In this document: positions 1 to 54,636 of the stretch, in pieces
Layout: each line of letters opens with the position of its first letter
Position numbering within the stretch: position 1 is the first letter of the stretch
Assembly: GCF_019029495.1 (NCBI RefSeq)
Contig: NZ_JAERQM010000003.1
Location: 124,001 to 188,000 of the forward strand
Reading direction: 5' to 3'
Source of the DNA: Falsiroseomonas oleicola
Lineage (GTDB): Bacteria > Pseudomonadota > Alphaproteobacteria > Acetobacterales > Acetobacteraceae
DNA length: 64,000 nt
The notes under the pieces: model-generated
Databases searched by the model: none
What the model saw: the letters and a program-made list of their open reading frames with translations, nothing else
Told to the model about the DNA's origin: nothing
Program-made: the position numbers and the translations under genes

Positions 1-312
1 GCCAGCCTGACCGTCTGGTCTGGTTCGAGCGCGGACCCGCTCTATCGCGAGTGGACCTCCGCCGCTGCGCAAATCCTGGCCGCGCCGGCCCATAGCCTTG
101 GCGGTGTCCTGGCCAAGCTCATCATGGCGTTGGACCAGATCGGCATCGCCCGGGAGGACGCGGAAGCCCTCGAGCCCTGCGAGGTGGCGGAGCATGCCTT
201 GCTGGAATGCATCCGCGCCCTTTCGGAGATCACGGGAATCAGCCTGGACGCGATGGGGGCGGACTTCGTCAGCGCCAAGCTCCGCGCCCCGGCGGCGGAG
301 GCGCGGGCATGA
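1..312 (+). CDS. Partial small phage-element protein (C-terminal part)
   Basis: The reading frame is open from the first base of the window, so the start lies to the left. The visible 103 residues are mostly helical and hydrophilic. They contain the stretch PAHSLGGVLAKL, which resembles PAAGFAGVLAKL in the next gene, so the two may be distant paralogues. Short proteins with a 'PA...G(V/I)AAKL' motif are common in alphaproteobacterial prophages (recollection, not checked). The stop overlaps the next start as ATGA, which implies translational coupling. Function is unknown. Confidence 0.6.
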   Translation, partial: ASLTVWSGSSADPLYREWTSAAAQILAAPAHSLGGVLAKLIMALDQIGIAREDAEALEPCEVAEHALLECIRALSEITGISLDAMGADFVSAKLRAPAAEARA

Positions 313-1091
313 CGAACGCAACCACCCGCCGCGGCGTCCTGGCCTTTGCGCCGGCCGCGCTGTTGCTGTCCGTCGCGCAGCCTGCGGAGGCGCCGCCTCT
401 GCCTCCGGCGACGCCCGTGGATGCCCTGCCGGAAGCCGATCGCCGGCTGCTGGCGCTGCGTGAATCCGCCAGGGCGGGAAGTGCGGCCTATTACGAAGCC
501 ATGCGGGCCGGCTGGGCGGCCGATGAGGCCGGCGACCGCGCTGCCCGCGCCGAAGCGGACGGCGCCCAGGAAGACGCCTGGGCGGCCTATGTGACCGCGC
601 TGGAGGAAATGGCGGAGATTCCAGCGGCAGGCTTCGCCGGCGTGCTGGCGAAGCTGTCTGCCACGGATGCCTACACGGATATCCACTGCGCCGCGAACGC
701 CGAGGAATTTGCCACCCTCGCCAGCGCCGCGGCCGATGCCGCGCGCATCCTGGCGGAGCTCGGCCTGGCCGCCGCCGCGCCGGCGCCTGTGCCGTCCCGC
801 GATTGCGCGCTGCTGACCTGGTGCGAGCAATGGCACGAAGCCGCCATCGAGCGCGAAGAGCGTTTCGACCTGGCGCCGGAGACGATGACCGCATCGGAGC
901 TTCGGGCGGAAGCGGCGCTGCGGCACCGCATGGCCGATCGGATGAGTCTCATCATCGGCACCCCGGCCCTGACCCGGGAAGGGCGGGTGGCGAAGGCGGA
1001 GATCCTTGAAGGCTATCTGGACGACCGGCGGGACATGGTCGCCCGGCTGGCGGCATCCCTGGTTCAGGATGTGACGCGGGGTGCCGCATGA
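309..1091 (+). CDS. Hypothetical exported/Tat-like phage-element protein
   Basis: A 260-residue protein of unknown function. The N-terminus (TNATTRRGVLAFAPAALLL) has a twin-arginine followed by a hydrophobic run, so a Tat-type signal or a short membrane anchor is possible. The rest is acidic, Ala-rich and helical, with several charged repeats that would suit a coiled coil. The motif PAAGFAGVLAKL echoes the preceding partial gene. The ATG at 309 was chosen over an upstream in-frame ATG at 207 because it forms a four-base ATGA overlap with the previous stop. The next gene overlaps in the same way at 1088. Confidence 0.6.
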   Translation: MTNATTRRGVLAFAPAALLLSVAQPAEAPPLPPATPVDALPEADRRLLALRESARAGSAAYYEAMRAGWAADEAGDRAARAEADGAQEDAWAAYVTALEEMAEIPAAGFAGVLAKLSATDAYTDIHCAANAEEFATLASAAADAARILAELGLAAAAPAPVPSRDCALLTWCEQWHEAAIEREERFDLAPETMTASELRAEAALRHRMADRMSLIIGTPALTREGRVAKAEILEGYLDDRRDMVARLAASLVQDVTRGAA

Positions 1092-1312
1092 CAGCCCGCG
1101 CCATCTGCGCCATGCGGCGCGCGCAGCGCCGGGCTGTCCGCGGCATCACCTATGGCGAGGTGCAGATGCTGGCCCTTGTCGTCACGGTGCTGGGCGAGGA
1201 TGCCGCGCGCGCCCTGGTCGCCGCGATGCCCGTGGCCGATGGGCCGGATGCGGTGGCCTGGGCGGTCGCCGAGGCCGCCCGCACGGCGGCGCCGGCCAGG
1301 GCGGCGGCGTGA
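1088..1312 (+). CDS. Small hypothetical protein of the element
   Basis: A 74-residue Ala/Arg-rich protein translationally coupled to the gene before it through an ATGA overlap. It begins with a basic stretch (RAICAMRRAQRRAVRG) and continues as a single helix-rich unit. I recognise no family. It is the last gene of a three-gene coupled set and is followed by a perfect GC palindrome. Confidence 0.5.
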   Translation: MTARAICAMRRAQRRAVRGITYGEVQMLALVVTVLGEDAARALVAAMPVADGPDAVAWAVAEAARTAAPARAAA

Positions 1313-1330
1313 TGACGCGGGCATTGTTGC

Positions 1331-1350
1331 GGCGGCCCGCGCGGGCCGCC
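1331..1350. terminator. 20-bp perfect GC palindrome after a three-gene set
   Basis: The left half GGCGGCCCGC is followed directly by its exact reverse complement. It lies 18 bp after the stop at 1312. There is no T-run, so it may be only a transcript-end stem or a protein-binding palindrome rather than a true intrinsic terminator. Confidence 0.35.
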
Positions 1351-1450
1351 ATGCTCGAAATCGGCGGGGCTAGGCTGGCCCCCGACAAGTCCGGACCCTC
1401 CGCGCCGGATTGCCCCGCCGACTACAGGCGCGGGGCGTGCGGAGGCGCGG

Positions 1451-2308
1451 ATGCAGCATCGGGAATCGGTGCCCGACGATCATGTGCCTGGATCGGGCAT
1501 GCTGCGGATAGAAGCCGGCGCGTCCCTGCCCTTCGATCTGTTCGCGGCTGCGGATGTCGAGTTGCTGTGTGGTGCGGCCCGCCGGTCGCCAGTGCCGGGA
1601 CTCAGACACCAACAAGAAGCCCTCCGCCTCAGCGATACGGCGATCGCGTTCGTCATGGAGCGGCGTCGCCGCGACATGACGGACAGGGAGAAGGTCGAGC
1701 TTATGAGCCGGATGGCGAAGCTCGCCGAGGAGCTGCACGGCTTCATGCGTCGTTCGGATATCGCGGATCTGTGGGACCCGGACATTGGCCACCTTCCGGC
1801 GATTCAGCTTGCGATGGACGCGCCCCACGATGCGGAGTTTTGGAGGCGGAAAGACGCCGCGAAGGAAGCGCGGTATCTGATCGGCGGCGATTCGGACCCT
1901 CAGCGCTTTCTTTGGATATTGCAGGTTGCCGCCACCGAACAGGCTCGGCGGTCAACCTTCCCCTCGCGCCGCGGCCCCGAGCGGCAGACGGCCCGGCATG
2001 TGTTCGTGTCGCGGGTGTTGCACGCCTACACCGCAATGACGGGCCAAGCTCCAGGCATCGGGCCTGCGAATGGCGGGACCCGCAAGGCCGGGCCGGCTGC
2101 GCGCTTCGTCGCCGAGGTCTGTCGGCTGATGCGTGCGAGGCTCACGCATCATGAGCGCGAGGTCGATCCCGGGATCGATGGGCTGCTTGCGTCGGGCGAA
2201 GCGGAACACGTCGCGGGCCAATGGGTTAGTGAGGCTCTTCGCCACCGCACGCGTGAAGAGCAGTTGCTGGCCCAGTTGCGTGGAGGGCCGCGCGGCTCGG
2301 CGACTTAA
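1451..2308 (+). CDS. Hypothetical phage-element protein
   Basis: A 285-residue soluble protein with many charged residues and no membrane segment. The middle (residues about 75-110) is an amphipathic helix region. The segment around residues 180-215 (VLHAYTAMTGQ, then AARFVAEVCRLMRARL) looks like an uncharacterised domain I associate with integrated elements, but I cannot name it. It stands alone, with 100-140 bp gaps on both sides, just before the AlpA-like regulator, so a regulatory or replication-accessory role is possible but unproven. Confidence 0.5.
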   Translation: MQHRESVPDDHVPGSGMLRIEAGASLPFDLFAAADVELLCGAARRSPVPGLRHQQEALRLSDTAIAFVMERRRRDMTDREKVELMSRMAKLAEELHGFMRRSDIADLWDPDIGHLPAIQLAMDAPHDAEFWRRKDAAKEARYLIGGDSDPQRFLWILQVAATEQARRSTFPSRRGPERQTARHVFVSRVLHAYTAMTGQAPGIGPANGGTRKAGPAARFVAEVCRLMRARLTHHEREVDPGIDGLLASGEAEHVAGQWVSEALRHRTREEQLLAQLRGGPRGSAT

Positions 2309-2423
2309 CCGCGCTTTACCGACTGCGGTTCAGCGTCGTGACGGGGGAATTATCCGTCGATGCGCAACCGCGATTTGTGTTGATAGTGGGACACCTCGGA
2401 ACACTCCAGAGGTAAACCTCCAT

Positions 2424-2666
2424 ATGCGGTACCAACCACCTGATCCGCTGTTGCCGCCCGAAAGTGCCGCAATTGAAGCGGGCCTTAGCATTCCTGCGTT
2501 CTATAAGGCGGTAGCCGCCAAGCGGCTGCCATCGCCAGTCTACCCGGCGCCGCGTGCGCCCCGTTGGCGACGAAGCGAGTTGCTTGCCGCGCTGGAAGTC
2601 ACCCGCGCTCTTCCTTCCCAGGCCAAGGCGGCTCGCCGCGAAGCCAAGCTGGCCCTGGCGGGCTGA
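2424..2666 (+). CDS. AlpA/excisionase-like winged helix regulator
   Basis: An 80-residue protein with the AlpA-type pattern: residues about 18-50 read SIPAFYKAVAAKRLPSPVYP and then APRWRRSEL, matching the usual 'GISRSTLYRLVKEGRFPKPVRLG...RWRRSEI' layout of the MerR-like AlpA helix-turn-helix. Such proteins activate integrase or excision genes of prophages, satellites and islands. The start at 2424 is backed by an AGAGG Shine-Dalgarno 8-12 bp upstream. An in-frame upstream extension from 2133 overlaps the previous gene and was rejected. The gene lies directly upstream of the replication module. Confidence 0.7.
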   Translation: MRYQPPDPLLPPESAAIEAGLSIPAFYKAVAAKRLPSPVYPAPRAPRWRRSELLAALEVTRALPSQAKAARREAKLALAG

Positions 2667-2676
2667 GGCGGCACTC

Positions 2677-3054
2677 ATGCAAACCCGTGCGATGCCCTCG
2701 GCGACCCCCGCCGCGGCGCATAACCCTGTTGGCCATGCGATGGGATCGCCGATGCGCGAGTCCCTGCGGAGCCTTCCCCTCGGCGCGCGCTGCCTGCTTC
2801 TGCTGCTGGCCGATGCAGCGGCGCAGTCCGGCCACGATGAGACGCTGCCCTTCTCCGACACGCCAAGCCTTGCCGTGGTGGCCCATGCCGAGGAAGCGGA
2901 GATCGCCGAGCATATCGCGACGTTGATCGATCAAGGGCTGCTGGCCGTCACGACCAGCGGGCGACTCCGGGTGGTTGCCCTGACCCGTACCGGTGGCATC
3001 CGCCGCCTGGCGCGGTTGGTGATGCAGCCACATGCCGGCGGAGGGCGCGGCTGA
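2677..3054 (+). CDS. Hypothetical winged-helix-like protein of the replication module
   Basis: A 125-residue protein. Residues about 30-100 (LPLGARCLLLLLADAAAQSG and on to IDQGLLAV) follow the pattern of a small winged-helix unit of the kind found near replication initiators: 'R..LL.L..DA', 'A..A.' and 'L...GLL'. This is a pattern judgement only. It begins 10 bp after the AlpA-like gene and its stop overlaps the next start as TGATG, so it is part of a coupled transcript leading into the primase. Confidence 0.5.
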   Translation: MQTRAMPSATPAAAHNPVGHAMGSPMRESLRSLPLGARCLLLLLADAAAQSGHDETLPFSDTPSLAVVAHAEEAEIAEHIATLIDQGLLAVTTSGRLRVVALTRTGGIRRLARLVMQPHAGGGRG

Positions 3055-3542
3055 TGCCGGGCACAACCTTCAATGCCCTCCCGCTCCATCTTCGCGGCAT
3101 CGTTGACTTCCGGATCCAGGGCGGCCGTCTGCACATGGTAGGGCCGCGCGACCGGCACCCCCACGGCCCGCCATCACGAAGCGAGCTGCTGTTCATCGGC
3201 GATGACCGGGACGGGCCGAATGGATCCCTCGGTCCGGCAGCTTTCGACGGTCCACGGCTGCGCCGCTGGTTGGCATCCTTCGGGCGTGGCGGCGGCGCCG
3301 TTGGCGTCTTCGGCGGGGCGCCAGACGCGGCGGCCTATAACTCCCTCTGTCTCTTCGCGGTGACGCTGCCGCGCGGCGCCGTCATCATCGAATGCGCGGT
3401 CGGTACGTGGCTGGAGTGGTCGCGCTACATCTACTCCCTTGCCCCCGACGCGCTGCGCATGGATGTGGTGCCAGGCGAAATTCAGGCCGAAGCCGTCCGG
3501 CACATGCGCGCCGAAGGCGCCTTTCCGGTGCAGATGCGGTGA
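3054..3542 (+). CDS. Hypothetical protein preceding the primase
   Basis: A 162-residue protein with mixed alpha/beta character. Its ends are coupled by one-base and four-base overlaps (TGATG at 3052 and GTGA at 3539) to the genes on either side. I recognise no family. The tight packing suggests that it works with the primase/ATPase pair, for example as an accessory replication protein. This is inferred from position only. Confidence 0.5.
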   Translation: MPGTTFNALPLHLRGIVDFRIQGGRLHMVGPRDRHPHGPPSRSELLFIGDDRDGPNGSLGPAAFDGPRLRRWLASFGRGGGAVGVFGGAPDAAAYNSLCLFAVTLPRGAVIIECAVGTWLEWSRYIYSLAPDALRMDVVPGEIQAEAVRHMRAEGAFPVQMR

Positions 3543-4399
3543 GCACCGCCCCGGAAATCGCGGCGCTGCTGGGCGGGCGCAAGGCCGCTGGTGGTGGCTT
3601 CATCGCGAACTGCCCCAGTTGCGGTGGCAAGAACTGTTTTCGAGTAAGTCAGAATCGAGAAAAGACCCTCTGGTGGTGCGCATACTGCCAAGACCAGCGC
3701 GCCATTACGGCGGCGGTGCTGGCGATCATCGGCGGGCAGGCGCCGATGGCGCCCAGCGTCGCGCCCGCCACTTCGCGCCAGGCGGCGCCGAGCGGGGATG
3801 CGGCCCTTGGCCTATGGTCGCGGGTGGTCCCGTGGCGGGATACCCCGGTGGCCAGCTACCTCGCCCTACGGCTGCCCGGGGTCGCCCTGCCGGCGCTGCC
3901 GGATATCGGCTTCCTTCCGCAGGCCAAGCATCCCGCCGGCGTCAGGCTGCCCTGCATGGTCGCGTTGCTGCGCGACGTGCATGGGGTGCCGACAGCGGTC
4001 CATCGGACCTTCCTCGCGCCGGGTGGCGTGGGCAAGGCGGCAGTCGAGCCCGTGCGGATGACGCTGGGCAATGTGCGCGGGAGCGCCCTGCGCATCTTCC
4101 CCGTGGCGGAGCGCCTGGTGGTTGGGGAGGGCATCGAAACCAGCCTCGCCGCCGGGCATCTGCTGCGCCTGCCCGCATGGGCCGCCATCAGCGCCGGCAA
4201 CCTGGGCCAGACGGTCGCCCTGCCGCCGGAGGTGAGGGAGGTGGTGCTGGCGATGGACGTGGACGGCCCCGGCCGCGCCGCCGCCGCGAAGGCCGCCGTC
4301 CGATGGAAGGCCGAGGGCCGCAAGGTGCAGCTCGCAAAGCCGCACCGCGAAGGCCAAGACTTCGCTGACGTGCTCGCGGAGCGCGCGAAGCGTGTCTGA
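3539..4399 (+). CDS. Zinc-ribbon/Toprim primase of mobile element
   Basis: A 286-residue protein starting at a GTG that overlaps the previous stop (GTGA). Near residues 25-50 two Cys pairs (CPSCGGKNCF and WWCAYC) form a CHC2-like zinc ribbon. The C-terminal half carries a Toprim fold: the acidic motif VGEGIETSLAA near residue 200 and LAMDVDGPGRAAA near residue 238, which correspond to the catalytic Glu and the DxD metal ligands. This layout matches the zinc/Toprim primases of phages and satellites, which make RNA primers for element replication. It overlaps the downstream ATPase gene by 8 bp, so the two probably act as a primase-helicase pair. Confidence 0.78.
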   Translation: MSTAPEIAALLGGRKAAGGGFIANCPSCGGKNCFRVSQNREKTLWWCAYCQDQRAITAAVLAIIGGQAPMAPSVAPATSRQAAPSGDAALGLWSRVVPWRDTPVASYLALRLPGVALPALPDIGFLPQAKHPAGVRLPCMVALLRDVHGVPTAVHRTFLAPGGVGKAAVEPVRMTLGNVRGSALRIFPVAERLVVGEGIETSLAAGHLLRLPAWAAISAGNLGQTVALPPEVREVVLAMDVDGPGRAAAAKAAVRWKAEGRKVQLAKPHREGQDFADVLAERAKRV

Positions 4400-5939
4400 G
4401 GACGATCCAGACGATTTCAGCATCGGAGATCCGGAGGACTCTCCGCCGGATGGGGGCGGGAAGAAGCCGAAGGCGAAGCGCCGCCGGCGGGACATCTCCA
4501 CTCTGGTGCTGAGCGAAATCGATCTGTTCCGTGGCGCGGACCACAAGCCCTATGCGGGGGTTCGCTATTCGCGCGGCCATGTCGAGACAATGCTTGTCAC
4601 CGGCCGCACCTTCGAGTTGCACCTTCGCGGCGTGGCCCATGACATCCACGGGGTCATCATCAGCGCCGCCGCGCTGCGTGCCGCGCTCGACATGGCTGAG
4701 ATGCGGGCGCTTGGCTCGGGCGATGTACGGCGCGTCTGGCGCCGCACGGCCGAGGTTGATGGCGAGCACTGGTTGGATATGGGTGGCGGTGACCCGAAGG
4801 GCGAGCGGCGCGCCATACGAATCACGGCGGCCGGATGGGCCATCGTTCCCGCGGAGGATGTGCCGGTTTTCTTCATCCGTTCCGACGACGCCTTGCCGCT
4901 ACCTGAGCCCATGCCCGGTGAGGCGCAGTACGGTGACCTTCGGTCCTTCATCAACGTCCAGGGCGAAGATGATGTCCTGCTCATCTGGGCTTTCCTGGTC
5001 TGCGCTCTTCGCGCCTTCCTCGGCAAGGGCGCGTACCCGCTGATATCCGTGATCGGTGAAGCGGGAGGCGGCAAGTCCACCTTCTGCTTGCTGCTGCATC
5101 TGCTGATCGATCCCAGCACTGTGACGCTGATCGGCCTGAGCGAGGATGTGCGGGATTATGCGGCGATCCTGCCGACGCGCCATGTTGTCAGCTTCGACAA
5201 CCTGTCGGGGTGCTCGGCGAGCATCAGCGACCTGTTCTCTCGTGTCGCGACGGGTGGCGTGCACATCGCCCGCCAGCTCAACACCAATGGCGAGCTGTAT
5301 ACGGCGAAGCTGCTGAACCCGCTGATCCTGAACGGCATCGCGGACAGCTTCGGGCGGCCGGACCTTCAGGAACGGACGCTGGTGATCGCGCTCGAGCGGC
5401 CGGCGGAGCGGCGGACGGATAGCGAGGTGCATGCGGAGTTCGAGCGCCTGCGGCCCGCGCTGTTGGGGCTGCTGCTGGATGGGTTGAGCGCGGCAATCCG
5501 CAACCTACCGAATACCGTGGTGGAAGATGCACCGCGCATGGCGGATGCGGCCCATTGGGCGGAGGCCGCGGCGCCTGGCCTCGGCATAGAGCCCGGTCGG
5601 ATCGTCGCCGCCTGGCGGTCGAACCGCGGCGCCATGGAGCGCGCGGCGCTTTCGGTGGATGACCTGGCGCGGTCGATCATCACGCTGCTGGATGAGGTCG
5701 AGCGCGACAGCGGAAGGGCCGAGTGGCGCGGCGAACCTGCCGAGCTGCATCGCCGGCTGAGTGACATTGCCGGGGAGCGTGTGACGAAGAGTCGCCTCTG
5801 GCCTTCGAATGCCGCCGGCATGTCGAATGCCCTGCGGCGCATCGTCGGGCCGCTGCGCAACGTGCACGGCATCGAAATCACGAAGGGCAAGGGCGGCGCC
5901 GATAGCACCCGATGGGTGAGCGTTCGCCGAGGTCCCTAG
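4392..5939 (+). CDS. P-loop ATPase, probable replication helicase partner
   Basis: A 515-residue protein with a Walker A motif GEAGGGKST near residue 225 and a plausible Walker B/sensor region (HVVSFDNLSG near 262), as in the virulence-associated-E and D5-like ATPases encoded next to Toprim primases. The N-terminus is acidic and then basic (KKPKAKRRRR) and may bind DNA. A GTG start at 4392 overlaps the primase stop. Helicase activity is inferred from the family pattern and pairing. A DNA-dependent ATPase of another kind cannot be excluded. Confidence 0.7.
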   Translation: MSEDDPDDFSIGDPEDSPPDGGGKKPKAKRRRRDISTLVLSEIDLFRGADHKPYAGVRYSRGHVETMLVTGRTFELHLRGVAHDIHGVIISAAALRAALDMAEMRALGSGDVRRVWRRTAEVDGEHWLDMGGGDPKGERRAIRITAAGWAIVPAEDVPVFFIRSDDALPLPEPMPGEAQYGDLRSFINVQGEDDVLLIWAFLVCALRAFLGKGAYPLISVIGEAGGGKSTFCLLLHLLIDPSTVTLIGLSEDVRDYAAILPTRHVVSFDNLSGCSASISDLFSRVATGGVHIARQLNTNGELYTAKLLNPLILNGIADSFGRPDLQERTLVIALERPAERRTDSEVHAEFERLRPALLGLLLDGLSAAIRNLPNTVVEDAPRMADAAHWAEAAAPGLGIEPGRIVAAWRSNRGAMERAALSVDDLARSIITLLDEVERDSGRAEWRGEPAELHRRLSDIAGERVTKSRLWPSNAAGMSNALRRIVGPLRNVHGIEITKGKGGADSTRWVSVRRGP

Positions 5940-6005
5940 TGCCAGGTTTCGGGCGCGCGCCGCTTCGCCCGATGCCTTTTCACATAGCGGCATGGAGTGA
6001 CGAAG

Positions 6006-6656
6006 ATGGATTTCAAAGCACTGTTTCCCATGCGCCCGAAGGGTGAGTCTGTGAAGGATATCGACGAAGCCCTTCAGCTTGCGCGGAACGCCGGAGAGGC
6101 GGCGCGCGCCAGCATCGGGGATATCCAGGCGCGGCGCGCAGCCGTGCTGCTGAATGGCAGCGAGCAGGAGGTCGCCAGCGCAGAGGCCGCGCTTGCGGCG
6201 GCGCGGGCGGATGCCGAACGGTCGGATGTCCTGGTGCCGGCCCTCGAACAGAAGCTCGCCGAGGCCCAGCGCCGCGAGCGGATCGCCGCCCTCGTCGTCC
6301 AGGTGGCGGAGGCCAACGCGAAGTGCGCGGCGGCGGAGAAGGCGATCCATGCCCGGTATGAAGAGCTGGCGCACGCTCTCGTGCGGGATGTGTTGCAGCC
6401 GGAGAATGAGGCGATCCGGGCGCGAGAAGCCGCGGCGCTGGCCGTGGATCGGCTGGTGCAGGATCTTCGCCTTGACGAGATCCCGGAAAACCTTCGGGTG
6501 AGGAAGGTGCCTTTCGGTGTGCAGATGCCGAACACCCTCTTCCGCAATCAGCTCGGCGACGAAATCAGGCTGCCCAGCCTGAAGGGCACCGGCTTTCCGA
6601 ACGATCATGTCGCGGCGATCTGGCCGCCGCACAATGGACACCGTCAGGGTGGCTAG
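6006..6656 (+). CDS. Coiled-coil phage-element protein
   Basis: A 216-residue protein. Residues about 15-140 are Ala/Glu/Arg-rich with heptad-like spacing (AEAALAAARADAERS, ALEQKLAEAQRRERI), so a long coiled coil is expected. The C-terminal 70 residues are more mixed. The ATG at 6006 has GGAG 8 bp upstream and was preferred to a GTG at 5997. The gene sits between the replication pair and the prohead-protease-like gene and overlaps the latter. A scaffold-like role is conceivable, but there is no direct evidence for it. Confidence 0.55.
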   Translation: MDFKALFPMRPKGESVKDIDEALQLARNAGEAARASIGDIQARRAAVLLNGSEQEVASAEAALAAARADAERSDVLVPALEQKLAEAQRRERIAALVVQVAEANAKCAAAEKAIHARYEELAHALVRDVLQPENEAIRAREAAALAVDRLVQDLRLDEIPENLRVRKVPFGVQMPNTLFRNQLGDEIRLPSLKGTGFPNDHVAAIWPPHNGHRQGG

Positions 6657-7227
6657 AGGCGCGGCGCCTCCGCCGGTTCCCCCGCCTCTCGCGGTGGAGC
6701 CGGCTTCTATCGACGGGGCTGCGCCGCCTTTCCTGCAATGGGGCGAGGTTGACGGACGACTCGGAAAGCGCGGCTTCGATTCGAAGGCGCGACGCATCGT
6801 CGGCCGCATCTGTTCAGAAGGTCCCGTGCAGCATCGGGGGGCGGATGAGCGGCTGATTCTGGACATGGCGAGGGCCGATCTGTCGCTGTTGAATTCTGGG
6901 CGGGCGCCTGTGCTGTTGGACCATATGCAGGCGTTCAGCGGCCTTATCGGCGTGGTCGATCGGGCGTGGGTTGAGGGCAACGCCTGCCTGGCAGAGATGC
7001 GGATCGGCCCCACGGCGAGATGCGCTGAGGTGTGGGATATGATCGCTGCCGGAATGCTGCAAAACATATCCATCGGATTCCGCTTTCTGGCCTGGCCTTC
7101 GGCGGCGGGTGTCCTGCGTGCGGCACAGTGGCACCCCTTTGAGGTCAGCCTTGTTACTGTGCCGGCGGACTGGACTGCGTCGCTGCTGCATGGTCGTTTG
7201 CCCAGCGCGGCCCCTTCGGTGGACTGA
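6634..7227 (+). CDS. HK97-type prohead protease-like protein
   Basis: About 197 residues. From the middle onward it follows the S78 (HK97) prohead protease pattern: LLDHMQAFSGLIGVVD supplies the candidate catalytic His, LQNISIGFRF the candidate Ser, and FEVSLVTVPAD is the conserved strand after it. In phages this protease matures the capsid by cutting scaffold and coat protein. Here no major capsid or portal gene lies in view. An alternative in-frame ATG at 6607 exists, and neither start has a clear Shine-Dalgarno. The Pro-rich N-terminus is unusual. The stop overlaps the next start (GATG). Confidence 0.68.
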   Translation: MDTVRVARGAAPPPVPPPLAVEPASIDGAAPPFLQWGEVDGRLGKRGFDSKARRIVGRICSEGPVQHRGADERLILDMARADLSLLNSGRAPVLLDHMQAFSGLIGVVDRAWVEGNACLAEMRIGPTARCAEVWDMIAAGMLQNISIGFRFLAWPSAAGVLRAAQWHPFEVSLVTVPADWTASLLHGRLPSAAPSVD

Positions 7228-7988
7228 TGTCCCGTCGCCTCACCTCACATCGCTGCTGGCCGGCCGCTCCGGCCGGCGCGCGCGATTCCATCCATGCGAT
7301 TGCGGTGGAGATCGCGGGTGGTGTGGCGAAGAGCGTTGCGCCCATCTGCACCGCGCTGGAAGCGGAGGCGGTGGCGCTGCTGCGGCGCTTGGCGCGGCAG
7401 GGAGGCGCGCCGACACGTGCCGTGGCCGTCGAACGCCTGCGCCGTCTACAGGCTGCCGCCGCAGCCCTGGCGCAAGCCTGCGCCGATCTGGACCCGGTGA
7501 CGCTGAGTCTTCTGGCGGCGCGATCGGCCACCCTCCCGCTGCGCGCGGCGGTGGTTATGGCAAGGCGCATTGCGGATTCGGCGAACGTCGCGCGGCTGGA
7601 TCTGGTGAACGCCACGCCGCCGACACCAGGCCCCGGCAATCTGGCGGATCGGCTATGGGGCGATCCGCGGTTGTCCCTCTGTCGCGGGTGTTGCGGCATC
7701 GTCTCCGCTTTTGCCGGCAAGGATGCATGCAGCAGCTCGCCCGGCGGCTTGGTTCATCGCACGGCAGCGGCCGTGTGGGACCGCGCAACTGGCGAGGTTG
7801 GGGAAGAGGCCGGCCTTGAGCGGTACGTCGCCATGGCACTGAGCATGACGCGGGCAGCGGATGCAGGCGGTTGCAGTGCAGAAGCGCGGTTTGTCGAATC
7901 TCCCGGCAGGGCGGGGGAATACGACAAAGCCTTTCGTGAGGAATCGATGCAGTTTTCCCCGACGCCGCAGCCTGCGGTCGCGCCGTAG
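7227..7988 (+). CDS. Hypothetical Ala/Arg-rich phage-element protein
   Basis: A 253-residue protein of unknown family. It is helical and Ala-rich through residue about 140, then has a small Cys cluster (LSLCRGCCG) near residue 153. The gene is coupled to the protease-like gene by a one-base overlap. Its place between protease and tape measure would suit a capsid or tail-junction protein, but no motif supports that. Confidence 0.45.
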   Translation: MSRRLTSHRCWPAAPAGARDSIHAIAVEIAGGVAKSVAPICTALEAEAVALLRRLARQGGAPTRAVAVERLRRLQAAAAALAQACADLDPVTLSLLAARSATLPLRAAVVMARRIADSANVARLDLVNATPPTPGPGNLADRLWGDPRLSLCRGCCGIVSAFAGKDACSSSPGGLVHRTAAAVWDRATGEVGEEAGLERYVAMALSMTRAADAGGCSAEARFVESPGRAGEYDKAFREESMQFSPTPQPAVAP

Positions 7989-8043
7989 ATGCGGCGGGCC
8001 TTGGTGATGGCCTTGCCGACGTCTGGTAGCGGGAGAATTGAAG

Positions 8044-10935
8044 ATGAGCGGATCGCGGGGGCGTAGCGTCTACAACTTCCGCGTCCAGGCTGAGGGGTTC
8101 AACGAATTCGTCCAGGACCTGCGCAGCGTCGCGGGTGAATCCGAGGCCGCGAACCGCGCCATCGAAACCCTGGTGCGATCCAGCCCGCAACTGGCCAGCG
8201 CGATGGAAGCGGCGGCCGCGGCGACGGAACGGGCGGCCAAGCGGGCGGTGGAGCTGCGGGAGCAGCAGGACCGAAGCGTCACTTCGGGCGGCCGGGCGAC
8301 GCAGACGGTGGGCGGCCTGTCTGCGGCGCTGGGCGACCTGGAAGGCAAGACGACGGCGGCGCGTCGCGCGGCCGGGGATTTCCGTGGGGCGCTGGATCTG
8401 ATCGGCGCCAACACCATCGCCCAGAAGGTCGGCGATGTCAGCAGCATCATCAGCAATGTCGGCGACACGCTGGGGGCCGCCGGCCTGGCTGCGGGGCGGT
8501 TCGAGGGTGCGTTGTCGCTGCTGTCGGGCCGTCTGGTTGCCGTGGCTGGCGTCGTCGCGCTGCCGCTGTTTTTGAACAGCGTGGGCCTCGGCATCAGCAC
8601 GGCTGGAGAGGCAGCCACGACTGCCGGCACTGCGATGGATCAGTGGCGCGAGATGCTGCTGCGCCTCAACCCGACCTTGGAACAGACGGCGCAGCTTGCG
8701 GAGCGGACGGCAAAGGCGCTCCGCGAGACGGAGCTGCGCGAGGTCGAGCTGCGTTACGGCCGTGTGGTGGAGGAGCGCGGTACGGCCATTGGCCGGCTGC
8801 CGGAAGTCGACGCGCAGCTGCGCGCGGCCGAGCGTGCGGCTGCTGATGCGGAGGCGCGTGCTGTTCGGATCGAGCTGGAACTCGGCGCTGGAGAAGGGCC
8901 TGTTGGCGACCGCGCAATGTTCGGCGTGGCGCAGCGCCGGCAGCGGGAGCGCGCGGCGAGCGCCGCGGTGGCGGCGCGCGAGCAGGTGAACACCCTGCGG
9001 AGCGAGCGGCTGCGGCTGGAAGAACAGATTAACGCGGCCGGGGTCGCGGCCAATCAGTACCGTAATGAGCGCGCGCGCCTTTCAGGCCCGATCTACGGCG
9101 AGCCCGCCGGGCCGCCAGCGCCGCCCGGCCTGACGGTACCGGCATCTTCCGCCGGTCGCCGCATCGCCGATACCTCCGCGCGCGACGCTGCGGCCGAGGC
9201 GCGCGATTACGATCGTTCCGAGCAATTGGCTCGGCGCACGGCGGAGGCGCAGTTCGATGCGTTCAGCCGCGTCCAGACCGAAATCACCCGCGCGCAGCAG
9301 CGCGAGGAAGCGGTGCGGGAACGCTCGGCGGAGCGGGTCACGGACAGCATCACCCGTTACGCGGCCGACGGCTTCGCGGACCTGTTCCAAAGCGTGGAAG
9401 GCGGCTGGGCCGCGACGCTGCGGAAGGTGCAACAGACGGCCCAGAACACCGTCATCCGCTTCGGGGCGGAGGCGATTATCCGCCCCGTGGTTGCCTCCGG
9501 CGTCAGTGCGCTGGGGCTGGGCAGCGGCGGCGGTGGCCTGTCGGACCTGCTGGGCCTCGGCCAGACCTTCGGCCAGGCGACCAGCCTGCTGGGGCTCGGC
9601 AGCGGTGGCGGCATCGGCGGTTTCCTCGGCCAGCCCATCTTTGGCCAGGCGGCGCTGGCCGGCTCCACCAACAGCGCCCTGGCGGCGCTGGGCCCGGGCG
9701 TCTACGGCCCGGCGACGCCTTCGGCCCTCGGGCTAAGTGGTGCCACCTTCGGCCAGGCGTTGGGGGGCATCGGCGGCGGCTTTGCCATCGGCAGCACCAT
9801 CGGCGGGCTGATCGCCGGCAACAGCGCCGCGCGGCAGACCAATGCGCAGATCGGCGCGGGGCTCGGCGCCGGCGCCGGCTTCCTGATCGGCGGGCCGGTG
9901 GGCGGGCTGATCGGCGGCGGCCTGGGCGGCGCACTGGGTGGCGTCCTCGGCCCTGGCGAAAAAACCAACGCCTTCGGCTATGGCGTCACGGCCTCCGGCG
10001 GCCAGTTGGGCCTGTCCGGGCTGTCGACCACGGGCGATGGCGCGGGCGGGGATGCCGCGATCCAGGCGGCGCAGCAGCAGGTGGCGCAGATCAATGCCGC
10101 GCTGGCCGCGGCCGGGCTGACGGTGCGGGACAACAACCGCGCCGTCACCGGCGGCGGAAACCGGCCGACCGATGGCAGCCAATCCGCCAGCTTCGAGGAG
10201 GCGCTGCGCACCTTCCGCTTCAGCAGCGGGAACAGCAACGTCCAGACGGCGCTGGATCGCCGGCCGGATGCGACGCTGGATGAGGCCCTGGCCATCGCCC
10301 AGAATTTCGAGGCGGTGAAAGCCGCGATCGAATCGCTGACGGCGGCACCGGTCTCCGCCCTGACGGCGGAGCTGCGGCAGATCGGCGTCGTCTTCGACGC
10401 GGCGCGCGCCAGTGCCGCCGAATATGGCCTGGCGCAGGACGAGCTGAACCGGCGCCAGCAGGAAGCGGTGACGCTGGCCGAGACCCGGTCGGAAGCCGGG
10501 TTGCTCGGCGGGCTGACGCAGCGGTCGCGGATCCTCGGCGGTTTCCTGGAAACGCGGGCGCGGTCGACCGGGTCGGCGCAGTCGCAGTTCACCGCGGCGC
10601 GGTCGCAGTTCGACAACGCCTTGGCGGCGGCCGGCGCGGCGGGCACCGAATCCGCCGATCTGTCCGGCCTGGTGCGGTCGGCGGAGGCTTTGCTCACCGC
10701 CAATTCCGCCTTCAATGGCGGCGGCGCCCAGGCGGCGGCGGTGGAGGCGCGGGTGCGCGGCGCGATCATCGCGGTGGGCGGACAGTTGGACCTGCCCGGA
10801 TTCACCGATGACCTGACGGGCGCGATCTACCGCGCCGGGGAACGGCAGGTGAATGAGCTGCAACAGATCCGGAGTGGACTGGATGCGCTGCGCGAGGAAG
10901 TGCGATCGATCCGCCTCCTTTCATCAAGAGGCTAA
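8044..10935 (+). CDS. Tail tape-measure-like protein
   Basis: A 963-residue protein, the largest of the element. Residues 1-90 resemble the start of tape-measure proteins (YNFRVQAEGFNEFVQDLRSV, then a helical Ala/Glu/Arg stretch). A hydrophobic segment sits near 160-190, long coiled-coil-like helices at about 215-350, and a block near 440-480 (FADLFQSVEGGWAATLRKVQ, RFGAEAIIRPVV) matches the C-terminal tape-measure domain of lambdoid tails. Residues about 490-640 are glycine-zipper repeats (GGGIGGFLGQ, GLGAGAGFLIGG). The ATG at 8044 has GGGAG 8 bp upstream and is preferred to TTG at 8038. Tape measures set tail length and help DNA injection. No other tail gene is visible nearby. Confidence 0.72.
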   Translation: MSGSRGRSVYNFRVQAEGFNEFVQDLRSVAGESEAANRAIETLVRSSPQLASAMEAAAAATERAAKRAVELREQQDRSVTSGGRATQTVGGLSAALGDLEGKTTAARRAAGDFRGALDLIGANTIAQKVGDVSSIISNVGDTLGAAGLAAGRFEGALSLLSGRLVAVAGVVALPLFLNSVGLGISTAGEAATTAGTAMDQWREMLLRLNPTLEQTAQLAERTAKALRETELREVELRYGRVVEERGTAIGRLPEVDAQLRAAERAAADAEARAVRIELELGAGEGPVGDRAMFGVAQRRQRERAASAAVAAREQVNTLRSERLRLEEQINAAGVAANQYRNERARLSGPIYGEPAGPPAPPGLTVPASSAGRRIADTSARDAAAEARDYDRSEQLARRTAEAQFDAFSRVQTEITRAQQREEAVRERSAERVTDSITRYAADGFADLFQSVEGGWAATLRKVQQTAQNTVIRFGAEAIIRPVVASGVSALGLGSGGGGLSDLLGLGQTFGQATSLLGLGSGGGIGGFLGQPIFGQAALAGSTNSALAALGPGVYGPATPSALGLSGATFGQALGGIGGGFAIGSTIGGLIAGNSAARQTNAQIGAGLGAGAGFLIGGPVGGLIGGGLGGALGGVLGPGEKTNAFGYGVTASGGQLGLSGLSTTGDGAGGDAAIQAAQQQVAQINAALAAAGLTVRDNNRAVTGGGNRPTDGSQSASFEEALRTFRFSSGNSNVQTALDRRPDATLDEALAIAQNFEAVKAAIESLTAAPVSALTAELRQIGVVFDAARASAAEYGLAQDELNRRQQEAVTLAETRSEAGLLGGLTQRSRILGGFLETRARSTGSAQSQFTAARSQFDNALAAAGAAGTESADLSGLVRSAEALLTANSAFNGGGAQAAAVEARVRGAIIAVGGQLDLPGFTDDLTGAIYRAGERQVNELQQIRSGLDALREEVRSIRLLSSRG

Positions 10936-10972
10936 ATTTCTATCAGGTCATTGCGGTGAATGGAGACGAACT

Positions 10973-11278
10973 TTGAGACAAAGCCCAACTGATCTTAGCC
11001 TTGTCTTGCAGCAATCAACGCGTCTTTTGGACGCGATAAACGCTGCGCTTGCGCGAGAGGAGGACCTACGCCGGGCCTCGGCCGCTTATGAGGCATCGGT
11101 TCAAGAGGTTCGCCTGGCAAGGGAAGCGTTCCTGCCGTTAATGGAAAGCAATCCAGAGGCGCGGGCCGCCTGGGACCGGGCGCGGGCTGGCCTGGGTTTG
11201 CCGCCGGCTGATCCTCCGGCGTCTTCGCCGCAGCCGAAGGTAGAAGGTCTGACCCTGCTACATGGCGGAAAGGCGTAG
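10973..11278 (+). CDS. Small coiled-coil protein after the tape measure
   Basis: About 101 residues from a TTG at 10973, which has GGAG 7 bp upstream. The in-frame upstream extension overlaps the tape-measure gene and is unlikely. The sequence is helical (LLDAINAALAREEDLRRASA, then VQEVRLAREAFL) and ends in a Pro-rich tail. Phages often have small chaperone genes next to the tape measure, usually upstream, so its position after the gene is atypical. Function is unknown. Confidence 0.45.
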   Translation: MRQSPTDLSLVLQQSTRLLDAINAALAREEDLRRASAAYEASVQEVRLAREAFLPLMESNPEARAAWDRARAGLGLPPADPPASSPQPKVEGLTLLHGGKA

Positions 11279-11472
11279 CTGGCCCATGCAAGTAGGCGCC
11301 CTTCCCCTGCCCTTCCCTGGGATGTCGCACGTTCGCCCGCACGGGACCGGGGTGTTTGGCCCTGGGCGGCGGCGGCGGATGCGCGGTGGAAATCGCTCGG
11401 GCGTTCGCATTTCGAGGCTTGACGGGCTCAATGTCCGATTTCGCCCCTTGACAGGCCGAATTTGGCACGGGT

Positions 11473-11488
11473 TGGCACGGCCCTTGCC
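11473..11488 (+). promoter_or_regulatory. Candidate sigma-54 (-24/-12) promoter
   Basis: TGGCACG, four bases, then TTGCC fits the RpoN consensus TGGCACR-N4-TTGCW except at the last base. GG at 11474-11475 and GC at 11486-11487 have the required spacing. A second TGGCACGG lies just upstream at 11463. The site is in the 320-bp gap 11279-11601, which shows no gene, and points to the HTH gene at 11602. Confidence 0.4.
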
Positions 11489-11601
11489 GTGGTGGGTCCC
11501 TCTGGCGCTCCGGCTAATACGGTGAGAATGCCCGCCCGGCTTCACCAGTAGGTGGGTCGAAAACCTGCCTAAACTATTGATACTTAACGATGGAGAGCGT
11601 C

Positions 11602-12156
11602 ATGTCGGTTAAGAGGGCTGAGGCGGCCCGCATTCTGAACGTAAGCAAGGCGAGGATCACCCAATACGTTAAGGATGGCATGCCCTCCCTGGCGGATGGG
11701 TCGATTGATATCGATGCGGCGCGGCGCTGGCTTAACGACAACATCGATCCCGCGAAGCGCGCGGGTTGGGCGACGGCGAAAGCGCAGCGGGAGCCGGCGC
11801 GGAGGCTGGGAGAATTCGTCCCCTTCACAGCCTATCCCGATCCGACACACCGGGGTTTTGCGGTCGCCGCGTGTGCCGCGATTCTCCAGATGCCGACGCA
11901 TGTGGTGAAGGCTGCTGCTGATATCGGGCTGAATCAGCGTCAGGCGGAGCAGCTCGCGGACCTGGCAATGACGTTCTTGTGGGGAGACCTGGAGGACAAG
12001 GCACGGGGCATCGGAATTCCCTGCAATGATCCGAGCGGCGATGTCCTCCGGCTGGATGATACTTGGTGTCATCGGTGGCAGGATCGGTTTCCGTGGCATG
12101 AATTGTACGGCCCGGACGGGGTGAGCAAGGTGACCGGCGAGATCCCAGAGGGATAA
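11602..12156 (+). CDS. Nu1-like HTH protein, possible small terminase
   Basis: A 184-residue protein whose first 50 residues form a helix-turn-helix/wing (EAARILNVSKARITQYVKDG) followed by DIDAARRWLNDNIDP. This is the layout of the phage Nu1/small-terminase DNA-recognition domain and of related HTH_17 regulators. The rest (residues 60-184) is a soluble domain with no motif I know. ATG 11602 is preferred to ATG 11590 because GGAG lies 6 bp before it. Either DNA packaging recognition or transcription control is possible. No large terminase subunit follows; a terminator does. Confidence 0.55.
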   Translation: MSVKRAEAARILNVSKARITQYVKDGMPSLADGSIDIDAARRWLNDNIDPAKRAGWATAKAQREPARRLGEFVPFTAYPDPTHRGFAVAACAAILQMPTHVVKAAADIGLNQRQAEQLADLAMTFLWGDLEDKARGIGIPCNDPSGDVLRLDDTWCHRWQDRFPWHELYGPDGVSKVTGEIPEG

Positions 12157-12186
12157 CTGCCGCCCATCTGTTGCATGGTTTGATAG

Positions 12187-12219
12187 GCCCGCTTCCAAGT
12201 CATGGGGAGCGGGCTTTTT
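12187..12219 (+). terminator. Intrinsic terminator of the element's right-end operon
   Basis: A 7-bp GC stem (GCCCGCT/AGCGGGC), with extra TCC/GGG pairing inside, is followed by five Ts. It lies 30 bp after the stop of the Nu1-like gene. Confidence 0.75.
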
Positions 12220-12354
12220 CGTGTCGACCAGGTGGTAACCGCAGCCGCGAATCACCTGGCCGTGGCCCTCTGCCAGCGAGCGGTCTGAGACCATGCGCCA
12301 CCCCTTCCAGCAGACAAGGAAGAAGCAAAAAAAGCGAGGAAAACCGCCACTTGC

Positions 12355-12607
12355 GGACGACCCGGACGACCCCGGACGATCAAGGGTGCTGCGAACCCCC
12401 CAGGACTTAGGCCGGTTACGGACGACCCGGACGACCCGGACGACCCTTTTTTTCTAATTCAGAAAAAGAGATGCAGAAGGGAGGTGTTGCCGCGCGAATG
12501 CGCGAGTCCGGAGATAGGGAAAAAGCCGTCCGGATCGTCCGGGTCGTCCGTAACCGGCCTTCAACCTAGGGTTTTTCCGGACGACCCCGGACGATGGCGG
12601 ACGATCA
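12355..12607. repeat. GGACGACCC iteron-like repeat cluster
   Basis: Nine-base GGACGACCC units recur head-to-tail at 12355, 12364 and (degenerate) 12374, again three times at 12420-12446, inverted at 12532-12549, and once more direct at 12579, 12589 and 12599 in degenerate form. The cluster lies in the non-coding end of the element, between its last gene and the tRNA. It could be a replication origin, a DNA-binding array for an element protein, or a recombination signal. Confidence 0.65.
12409..12560. repeat. 26-bp perfect inverted repeat spanning 100 bp
   Basis: The left arm 12409-12434 (AGGCCGGTTACGGACGACCC...) is the exact reverse complement of 12535-12560. The arms enclose a 100-bp spacer that is AT-rich at its start, with a T-run at 12447-12453. 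Each arm contains GGACGACCC units plus a unique GGCCGGTTAC segment, so this is more than a by-product of the short repeat. Confidence 0.75.
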
Positions 12608-12667
12608 CTCAGGGGTTTCGGGGCGATATCTCGGGCCTTGGCCCGGGGCGGAGGCTGGAGGCGAGGA

Positions 12668-12705
12668 TGTGCCCCCGATGTGCCCCAGGGCTCTATTGTG
12701 CCCCC
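12668..12705. promoter_or_regulatory. TGTGCCCC triple repeat, candidate integrase arm sites
   Basis: TGTGCCCCC occurs at 12668 and 12697, and TGTGCCCCA at 12679. All are direct and 37 to 74 bp from the tRNA 3' end. Short direct repeats flanking a tRNA attachment core are typical of tyrosine-integrase arm-binding sites. The assignment is inferred from position. Confidence 0.35.
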
Positions 12706-12741
12706 CGGCTAGTAACTGATGGCGTCTAAGCCATTGAAAAA

Positions 12742-12816
12742 TGGAGCGGGCGGGGGGAATCGAACCCCCGACATTCAGCTTGGGAAGCTGACGTTCTACC
12801 TCTGAACTACGCCCGC
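12742..12816 (-). tRNA. tRNA-Gly (anticodon CCC)
   Basis: The minus strand folds as a standard cloverleaf. The acceptor stem GCGGGCG/CGCCCGC uses 12810-12816 with 12746-12752. The D-arm is GTTCAGAGGTAGAAC. The anticodon loop TTCCCAA has anticodon CCC at 12784-12782. The T-arm is GGGGG-TTCGATT-CCCCC. CCA is encoded at 12744-12742. It reads GGG glycine codons. The phage-like element abuts the 3' end, so this gene is the likely integration target. Confidence 0.93.
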
Positions 12817-53984: not shown

Positions 53985-54636
53985 GGCGGCAAGGCTAGCG
54001 CAGGATCGCCACGCCGGAAATCAGCCCGGCAGCCTTGCCGCACAGGCGGCCCGTCTGCGCCCGGCATCGCTGCGCGGTGGTGCGCTGCCGCGGCTCTGGC
54101 TGGTCTCCGATCCCGCGCGGCTGCCTGATCCCTGTGCAGCAGCGGCACGGCTGCCACTTGGGGCCGGGGTGCTGGCGCGGGGCTTGGCGCCCGCGGTGCT
54201 GGCGCGGCTGGGGCGGATCGCGGCGCGGCGGGGGATTTGCCTTCTGGTGGGCGGCGATGCGCGGGCGGCCTTGCGGGCACGCTGCGGGTTGCATCTGCCG
54301 GACCGGCCGGCGGGTCCCGGGCTGACGGCCTTCCTGCTGGCGCGGCAGCGGCGGGTGCCCTGGGCGATGCTGTCCCTGGCAGTGCATGGCCATGCGGGCC
54401 TGTCCAGGGCGCGCCGGGTGGATGCCGATTTCGGCTTCGTCTCCCCGGCCTTTCCCACAGCCAGCCATCCGGGCGCGCCGGCGCTGGGCCCGTTGCGCTG
54501 GGCGGCGCTTGCGGCGCGGCTCGGCCGGCCGGCGGTGGCGCTGGGTGGCGTGGCGCCCGCCAGCGCCCGGCGCCTTCCGCGCCATGGGCCTGGCCGTGTC
54601 GCCGGCCTGGCGGCGATCGGGGCGCTGGCCGGATGA
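53983..54636 (+). CDS. Thiamine phosphate synthase/TenI-like protein
   Basis: About 217 residues. LPRLWLVSDPARLPDPCAAA opens a TIM-barrel-like fold, and GAGVLARGLAPAVLARLGRI, GICLLVGGDARAALR, LHLPDR and FGFVSPAFPTASHPGAPALG follow the TMP-TENI pattern. The usual diphosphate-binding residues are not all clear, so it may be a divergent non-synthase member. No thi genes are adjacent. The start is uncertain: ATG 53983 overlaps the start of the YggS gene on the other strand, and no alternative ATG is close. Confidence 0.68.
   Translation: MAARLAQDRHAGNQPGSLAAQAARLRPASLRGGALPRLWLVSDPARLPDPCAAAARLPLGAGVLARGLAPAVLARLGRIAARRGICLLVGGDARAALRARCGLHLPDRPAGPGLTAFLLARQRRVPWAMLSLAVHGHAGLSRARRVDADFGFVSPAFPTASHPGAPALGPLRWAALAARLGRPAVALGGVAPASARRLPRHGPGRVAGLAAIGALAG

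Follow-up and report, generated by a model that had tools for sequence, protein, structure and literature searches.

A tRNA-Gly-linked element of Falsiroseomonas oleicola reads as a phage satellite that may supply its own tape measure to helper tails

We analyzed a stretch of 64,000 nucleotides from Falsiroseomonas oleicola (Acetobacteraceae; RefSeq assembly GCF_019029495.1, contig NZ_JAERQM010000003.1, forward-strand positions 124,001 to 188,000), hereafter the window, whose left end lies inside a mobile element that terminates at a tRNA-Gly gene. In our coordinates the genome (G000; 5.6 Mb, 30 contigs) carries this element on contig C23, and the window is C23:124001-188000. Judged by its sequence, the element is a satellite bounded by attachment (att) sites and belongs to a group with exchangeable morphogenesis genes, here including one for a tape measure protein of 963 amino acids (aa). 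We favor, with moderate confidence, the reading that this 16.1-kb satellite depends on a helper phage, replicates with its own proteins, is packaged via a site on the terS side that it shares with the helper, and supplies single assembly proteins in place of the helper's or to modify them. Its anatomy, att sites, uninterrupted genes, segments shared with a resident prophage, and recurrence in relatives were read directly.

To locate the second att copy, the genome was queried with the first 12.9 kb of the window, which revealed the tRNA-Gly end repeated exactly over 46 bp at C23:120662-120707, a site 3.3 kb beyond the window's left edge. Window positions equal positions in locus L010 minus 7000. 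A script check of the repeat found attL (L010:3662-3707) identical to attR (L010:19741-19786; window 12741..12786) over 46 bp, and the element therefore starts 3339 bases left of window base 1 and measures 16,125 bp from attL to attR. The integration target is tRNA-Gly(CCC) (12742..12816, minus strand). A gene for a tyrosine-type integrase (L010:3889-5238, 449 aa; PF00589 3e-9; phrog_1 1e-35) starts 182 bp inside attL. A preliminary description, made from the window alone, had proposed a tRNA-Gly-linked element with replication genes and a tape measure and with no capsid, portal, or large terminase; annotation and the extension to the left confirmed this, the extension yielding the integrase and the second att and no large terminase, portal, or capsid. 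An ordinary prophage running left of the window was rejected, as the element ends at attL with no head or tail genes between. In an empty-site comparison with 14 other genomes of the genus, the flanks of the element were not conserved. Two other genomes of the genus (G304 and G287) contain the tRNA-Gly end again as a 45-bp copy (93-100%), with a related integrase that adjoins the intact tRNA-Gly (G304) or the 45-bp copy (G287), and tRNA-Gly(CCC) is a recurrent integration site within the genus. Integrases placed in this way, at L199:3552-4721 and L200:7924-9141, are 42-43% identical to the panel integrases.

From attL, the gene order is integrase, small genes (one or two of those right of the integrase lie on the minus strand), AlpA-like helix-turn-helix (HTH) regulator, Toprim primase, P-loop ATPase, coiled-coil-type protein, prohead protease, a 253-aa frame, tape measure, a small frame, TerS/Nu1-like protein, iterons, and attR within the tRNA. 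Pfam and PHROG scans of 20 open reading frames (ORFs) of the element, which left out two small called frames (L010:6414-6794 and window 1112-1312), found no major capsid protein (MCP), portal, large terminase subunit (TerL), connector, tail tube, or other tail gene. A list of ORFs of at least 250 aa held no unexplained large same-strand frame in the element. The idea of a capsid concealed in the 253-aa frame (7227..7988, plus strand), whose coding status is uncertain, found no Pfam, PHROG, or PADLOC match in its favor.

The replication genes named in the preliminary description held up. The AlpA-like HTH protein (2133..2666, plus strand; conserved part ~2421-2666) was named by eye and has no match in Pfam or PHROG; the name is supported by 55-75% identity over 29-95 residues to proteins encoded 5' of the primase in relatives L098, L102, L119, and L120. 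The Toprim primase (3392..4399, plus strand) was confirmed by phrog_510 (1.7e-39) and, in Pfam, Toprim_3 (4e-15) and DUF7146 (4.9e-20), with homology from residue ~50. The 515-aa P-loop ATPase (4392..5939, plus strand), presumed to act in replication, adjoins the primase in close relatives as well, and its G-E-x-G-x-G-K-S motif is invariant in six homologues, bearing out its identity. It has no confident Pfam or PHROG name (AAA_22 at E=0.037, under the cut-off) and gave two matches, at 29%, against named phage records; a search of viral contigs with the ATPase alignment and the tape measure found no relatives. The Nu1-like HTH protein was likewise recovered as a TerS/Nu1-like protein (11590..12156, plus strand; phrog_57 1.3e-10). 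Between terS and the tRNA, seven GGACGACCC iterons on both strands within ~235 bp form two inverted clusters around an AT-richer stretch (~12446-12500), a putative replication origin (12354..12605).

The protease gene (6607..7227, plus strand) encodes a stand-alone prohead protease without a capsid domain. It matches phrog_4523 (7e-25 over profile positions 26-171 of 644) and, in Pfam, Peptidase_S78 at E=0.024 only; it aligns to the protease part of phage protease-capsid fusions and ends there. Residues His106, Ser155, and Glu179, which we take to be catalytic, are invariant in four aligned sequences. It had been called an HK97-type protease remnant: the protease part of that name stands, and the remnant part does not, given a stand-alone gene that is also found alone in relatives and keeps these three residues. 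Just before it lies the gene for a coiled-coil-type protein (6006..6656, plus strand; named by eye) of a family common to L098, L099, and L100, with similarity that is weak yet repeated (E 1e-4 to 0.01). A PDB profile search with this protein gave a single match, to a scaffold/myosin coiled-coil fusion at E=0.3, which is not meaningful.

We next consider the uninterrupted 963-aa protein (8044..10935, plus strand). A 968-aa homologue with 84% identity is encoded in a prophage on contig C12, where it follows the head genes and precedes other late genes. PHROG named none of the presumed tail genes of this prophage that were scanned (unknown-function families or no match), so its tail region is defined by position. 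Distant homologues in the bacterial family range from 738 to 1410 aa. Five candidate homologue regions were scanned with PHROG: L217 and L222, which align with the 963-aa protein, match tape-measure models; L220 matches many such models and aligned with the tape-measure query at E 3e-12, an alignment not recovered by tblastn; L218 and L219 have no match. A PDB profile search gave no match of note, and named phage records gave one match over 14% of the length. We accept the protein as a tape measure, as had been proposed, with the caveat that the assignment draws on the place of the prophage homologue, the length variation, and the PHROG matches of two relatives.

To see how the two copies differ, we compared them codon by codon. 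Over 963 aligned codons, the nonsynonymous (dN) and synonymous (dS) divergences are 0.107 and 0.382; between residues 370 and 945 they fall to 0.030 and 0.210. Residues 220-370 are 45% identical with dS above 1, and the last 18 residues also differ. These values indicate purifying selection over most of the length of the intact tape measure and an exchanged block at residues ~220-370. The lengths are near-equal (963 residues in the satellite versus 968 in the prophage). After the prophage copy, the closest relative found is L218, at 46% over the first 481 residues.

The C12 prophage (C12:601098-641979, 40.9 kb) is flanked by 51-bp repeats at tRNA-Arg (C12:601098 and 641929) and encodes an integrase, TerS, TerL, a portal, and a protease-capsid fusion. 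By blastn, the satellite and this prophage share the tape measure (2,915 bp at 85%) and a segment of 97 bp (89%, E 1e-26); the remaining matches are short, with E 6e-5 or worse. The 97-bp segment (11470..11563, plus strand) stands directly 5' of terS in both and contains a 49-bp identical core (11491-11539). On its 5' side are two direct repeats 29 bp apart (11409..11461), a spacing also seen in a repeat pair of the prophage. This genome contains two exact copies of a 39-base stretch of the core, and a search of 14 other genomes of the genus that allowed up to 3 mismatches found no copy. Compared with three viral contigs with related large terminases, two of which (L140 and L141) include the terS side, the module matched none significantly; an exact 18-base core match in viral contigs lay within a coding frame of an unrelated phage and was taken as chance. 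We read this module as a shared packaging or late-control site, putatively a cohesive-end (cos) site. Since the prophage shares with the satellite both the tape measure (84% aa) and the module 5' of terS, it is the likely helper.

The module also contains a perfect TGGCACG-N4-TTGC motif at window 11473-11487, matched at L011:4942-4956 in the prophage, that is, 5' of terS in both; we take this to be the sigma54 -24/-12 consensus. RpoN-linked control of the late genes in both phage and satellite is possible. The element could be a true satellite in which the 97-bp module acts as a late promoter of sigma54 type, controlled by the helper, with packaging proceeding via the satellite's own TerS. The motif is perfect in both copies, no further perfect match turned up in 15 loci scanned, and the upstream repeat pairs 29 bp apart resemble activator sites. 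On the other hand, the longest identical block, the 49-bp core, follows the -12 element, in a region that a promoter has no need to conserve, and a cohesive-end site 5' of terS is the usual arrangement. We regard the late promoter as a serious but somewhat unlikely alternative to a shared packaging site.

From this anatomy we infer a path of mobilisation by a helper. Upon induction of the prophage, the element would excise with its own integrase and AlpA-like factor and replicate by its own primase and ATPase from the iteron origin. Its DNA would be packaged into helper-made heads through the terS-adjacent site common with the 41-kb prophage. Having no capsid or complete tail of its own, it would supply single proteins that replace or modify the helper's: the satellite tape measure would be incorporated into helper tails, giving chimeric tails, and the stand-alone protease, together with the coiled-coil partner encoded before it, would act on helper procapsids. 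Because the two tape measures are near-equal in length and differ in one main swapped block, their exchange probably does not serve to change tail length. With length kept within five residues, we would expect no change of tail length in satellite particles; rather, the satellite tape measure probably serves tail identity, to mark, protect, or re-target satellite tails. As a matter of speculation, its purpose might be to evade factors directed at the helper's tape measure, to fit other parts of the tail, or to serve in DNA entry. More broadly, a tape measure so similar to that of the resident prophage, together with the different versions carried by relatives, suggests that certain satellites remodel the tails of the phages they parasitize.

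Two other explanations of the tape measure were considered. First, it may be a weapon that poisons helper tails as a dominant negative or competes for tail parts, with the satellite itself using unmodified helper tails. Tail assembly is indeed the target of the satellite anti-phage proteins Rta (PMC12987554) and Tai (PMC11364771), and the helper copy is closely alike in length and ends. A poison, however, has no need of full length and of purifying selection over most of the gene, and in the proven case, the phage-inducible chromosomal island-like elements (PLEs) of Vibrio cholerae, the tape measure goes into the satellite's own virions. We therefore consider a weapon improbable. Second, the tape measure may be a recent and passive capture from the prophage by recombination, functionless for the satellite. 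The 84% identity to the prophage copy, far above the 46% of L218, speaks for it. Yet dS is 0.17-0.52 in the conserved parts, so that the capture is not very recent, and sister elements carry tape measures of another family. Moreover, the shared module lies ~0.5 kb 3' of the satellite tape measure and ~11.5 kb 5' of the prophage one; with the module on opposite sides, a single collinear exchange cannot explain both shared segments. A passive capture is thus quite unlikely.

To better understand how widely this gene content occurs, we searched 299 genomes of the bacterial family: the ATPase matched 23, the protease 54 (mostly within open frames longer than 500 aa), the end of the tape measure 18, and the tape measure of relative L100 48. 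Besides the window element, tape measures are carried by three att-bounded elements (L166, L134/L099, and L168) and five partial ones (L167, L100, L101, L175, and L176); many other elements lack one. L166 (14.6 kb, 45-bp att at tRNA-Glu) has an integrase by inspection, primase pieces, TerS (phrog_83), a stand-alone protease, and a 602-aa tape measure. L134/L099 (~18.3 kb, 19-bp att at tRNA-Glu) has an integrase by inspection, a primase-helicase, a coiled coil, a stand-alone protease, and a 1,407-aa tape-measure homologue that is 29% identical to the window tape measure over 239 residues. L168 (10.4 kb, 19-bp att at tRNA-Ala) has a primase-helicase by similarity, a 509-aa tape measure, a 619-aa protease-capsid fusion, and an integrase. 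Att matches of 18-19 bp are weaker boundary evidence than those of 45-46 bp.

Among the partial elements, L167 and L100 both run off the contig at the left, with tRNA-Thr at the right and no att repeat found; the former carries TerS, a protease, and a 621-aa tape measure, and the latter a primase, an ATPase, two coiled-coil genes, and a 588-aa tape measure. L101, which meets a contig end at the right, encodes an integrase, a primase, an ATPase, a tail protein (phrog_166, chaperone-like by eye) beside a 574-aa tape measure, and a minor tail protein (phrog_1924); its tape measure has just a distant partial second match within its own genome. L175 is an integrase-bearing locus with a 673-aa tape measure, a stand-alone head protease, and a primase. 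This protease (L175:7958-8617, minus strand; phrog_53 6e-96, head maturation protease, ClpP-like by eye) stands beside the tape measure, the pairing seen in the window with another protease family. L176 is a 4.6-kb contig with an integrase and a tape measure. L120 and L177 are att-bounded elements of ~9 kb with a protease-capsid fusion (L120:10703-12622; L177:6233-8065, minus strand) and no tape measure; neither portal nor large terminase was found among their called genes, not every ORF being scanned. The L120 integrase is 58% identical to that of the window element, and because the two elements have integrase, AlpA, primase, and ATPase types in common, we suggest that related satellites exchange capsid and tape-measure genes. 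Of a set of 20 loci fetched, several with tape measures or proteases are ordinary prophages or of uncertain type.

Several observations weigh against a helper-dependent, tail-modifying satellite. Neither Pfam nor PHROG gave a match for the 963-aa protein itself, nor did PHROG for the 1,407-aa L099 homologue. Satellite and prophage TerS have no relation recognisable by BLAST, and the putative cos assignment of the 97-bp module comes from its position only. Among the close ATPase loci (the window and six others at 42-48% identity), three of seven have a tape measure; the other four comprise one with a protease-capsid fusion, one with a protease and then the contig end, and two ending right after the ATPase. 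A tblastn panel (E 1e-4) detected neither tape measure nor protease in any of the 22 more distant ATPase loci, some on short contigs; one has a capsid-like match 9 kb away. For none of the three att-bounded relatives (L166, L134, and L168) does the same genome hold a prophage with a long DNA match. Finally, the preliminary description had proposed to look for conserved co-occurrence of the gene set in the family: co-occurrence is conserved as a theme and not as a gene order.

That description had left two options, a decayed prophage or else an element of a new kind, either a satellite or one that modifies tails, and the latter fared better, with the 46-bp att, the integrase, the replication genes, the intact tape measure, and the recurrence in tRNA-linked elements of the family in its favor. 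Of the two results it had named as refuting, a complete head and tail gene set just left of the window and a lack of conservation elsewhere, neither was obtained, although what recurs is the theme and not the exact order of genes. Decay of a formerly complete phage, in which a few genes survived by chance after its capsid, portal, terminase, and most tail genes were lost, would account for genes of three morphogenetic modules (TerS, protease, and tape measure) in roughly phage order, TerS in last place excepted, but we dismiss it as very improbable because the att sites, integrase, primase, ATPase, and tape measure are all uninterrupted, no other structural remnants or pseudogenes were found in the element (Pfam/PHROG, ORF list), and the odd subset of TerS, stand-alone protease, and tape measure recurs with another tape-measure family in L166 (att-bounded) and L167 (partial), while L175 pairs its tape measure with a different kind of head protease, a convergence not expected of chance decay.

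How does this satellite compare with known ones? The element is att-bounded, has its own integrase and replication genes, and lacks a full set of virion genes, as satellites generally do. The closest parallel is with PLEs, and the earlier remark that a tape measure without other tail genes was not a known form is outdated in that one respect, since PLEs were described in 2026 as carrying their own (PMC12987554). In that report, chimeric tails are formed by PLE11, whose genes include those for a tape measure, a putative tail assembly chaperone, and a baseplate hub protein, and PLE tape measures enter PLE virions in place of that of ICP1 (PMC12987554). The PLE11 and ICP1 tape measures differ by 95 residues in length with ~20% identity, satellite tails are ~10 nm shorter, and Rta escape maps to residues 314-387 of the ICP1 protein (PMC12987554). 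The same text leaves the benefit of altered tails open and states that no other satellites had been reported with a tape measure, while showing putative ones in PLE-like Vibrio elements and in capsid-forming phage-inducible chromosomal islands (cf-PICIs), the latter a sampling of cf-PICIs with putative tmp genes in the legend of Extended Data Fig. 10 (PMC12987554). Like PLE11 and PLE4, the window element is an integrated satellite that encodes a tape measure of its own and few if any further tail genes (PMC12987554), and relative L101 resembles PLEs in having a chaperone-like tail gene (by eye) next to that for its tape measure; in the window element, no tail assembly chaperone was found by Pfam/PHROG. 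The differences are several. The window element has a tyrosine integrase and a tRNA site, whereas PLE1 reportedly has a large serine recombinase; it replicates by a Toprim primase and ATPase and has a stand-alone prohead protease and TerS; its tape measure is 84% identical and near-equal in length to that of the resident prophage; and its candidate helper is temperate, in a host family other than that of V. cholerae.

With cf-PICIs the element shares a similar size and the presence of phage structural genes. These islands are described as encoding MCP, protease, portal, connectors, and both terminase subunits (PMC10690885); of this defining set, the window element shows the protease and TerS only, with no MCP, portal, connector, or TerL found. 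With gram-negative phage-inducible chromosomal islands (PICIs) of the EcCICFT073 type it shares int, AlpA, a primase/replication gene, an iteron origin, and a size near 15 kb. Origins of E. coli PICIs are described as having two iteron sets flanking an AT-rich region (PMC6092414), and the window element has the same layout as far as sequence goes. Unlike PICIs, which are described, for Gram-positive ones, as lacking phage structural genes (PMC6092414), it carries two (tape measure and prohead protease), and its primase and ATPase are separate genes, unlike those of gram-negative PICIs. Of Gram-positive PICIs it is also stated that prophages never use their att sites; at the tRNA-Gly site of the window element, the integrases of G304 and G287 may belong to prophages or to other elements. 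The C12 prophage has in common with it the 97-bp module 5' of terS and, at 84% aa, the tape measure but is a 41-kb phage with TerL, portal, and protease-capsid fusion, with otherwise unrelated DNA and another integrase and tRNA. By the features compared, the element is neither a PICI as described in print, nor a cf-PICI, nor a PLE. Among open-licence papers, preprint servers being outside the search, we found none describing a satellite with a tape measure and a prohead protease in Acetobacteraceae.

We tentatively propose, at less than even confidence, that such satellites seize single helper checkpoints through interchangeable, helper-matched cassettes. The choice of DNA would be taken over by the satellite's own TerS in combination with the packaging site of the helper; head maturation by a stand-alone prohead protease, of two unrelated kinds across members; and tail assembly by a tape measure that can be exchanged, is about as long as the helper's, and has one recognition block swapped. 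The cassettes vary by member: a tape measure, a protease plus a tape measure, a protease-capsid fusion, or a tape measure plus such a fusion. This strategy, which would stand in place of making or shrinking capsids, does not appear to be described in the literature covered by the same search.

We read the window element as the chimeric-tail principle of the cholera PLEs in an unrelated lineage, with a protease as partner. With its relatives it would represent an independent lineage of satellites, in an alphaproteobacterial family, in which a tape measure recurs, frequently together with a stand-alone prohead protease. Here, one genome would hold an endogenous satellite-helper pair, the presumed helper prophage having the matching tape measure and the same terS-side module, and the pair lets the purpose of the satellite tape measure be tested by simple deletions. 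Near-equal lengths and one swapped block separate a change of tail length from a change of tail identity.

The remaining frames of the element are the 3' part of a 173-aa satellite gene (1..312, plus strand; whole gene L010:6791-7312, starting left of the window), a 260-aa protein (309..1091, plus strand) with a twin-arginine- or lipoprotein-signal-like N-terminus by eye, a 285-aa protein (1451..2308, plus strand) with a 32% identical homologue in relative L119, and a small 141-aa frame overlapping the end of the tape measure (10853..11278, plus strand). A search for defence genes in the element gave weak matches only. A 114-aa protein (L010:5606-5950, minus strand) matches EACC1 (effector-associated component) at 7e-4, below the Pfam cut-off, and is a possible cargo or defence gene. 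In L101, a frame 3' of the tail genes (L101:14457-14972) has a HAD-like start by eye and is possible cargo. A 6.5-kb element at L116:6242-12804 has a 50-bp att at tRNA-Lys, an integrase, an ATPase, and AGCGTTCCG iterons, with no morphogenesis gene in the tblastn panel. Elsewhere in the window, ARAGORN calls a tRNA-Ala(tgc) at 54478-54571 whose length of 94 nt is unusual and which may be a miscall. Small proteins with twin-arginine- or lipoprotein-like N-termini (by eye) recur among the elements (window 309-1091; L099:8305-8805; L175:4606-5519, minus strand; L167:10337-11023).

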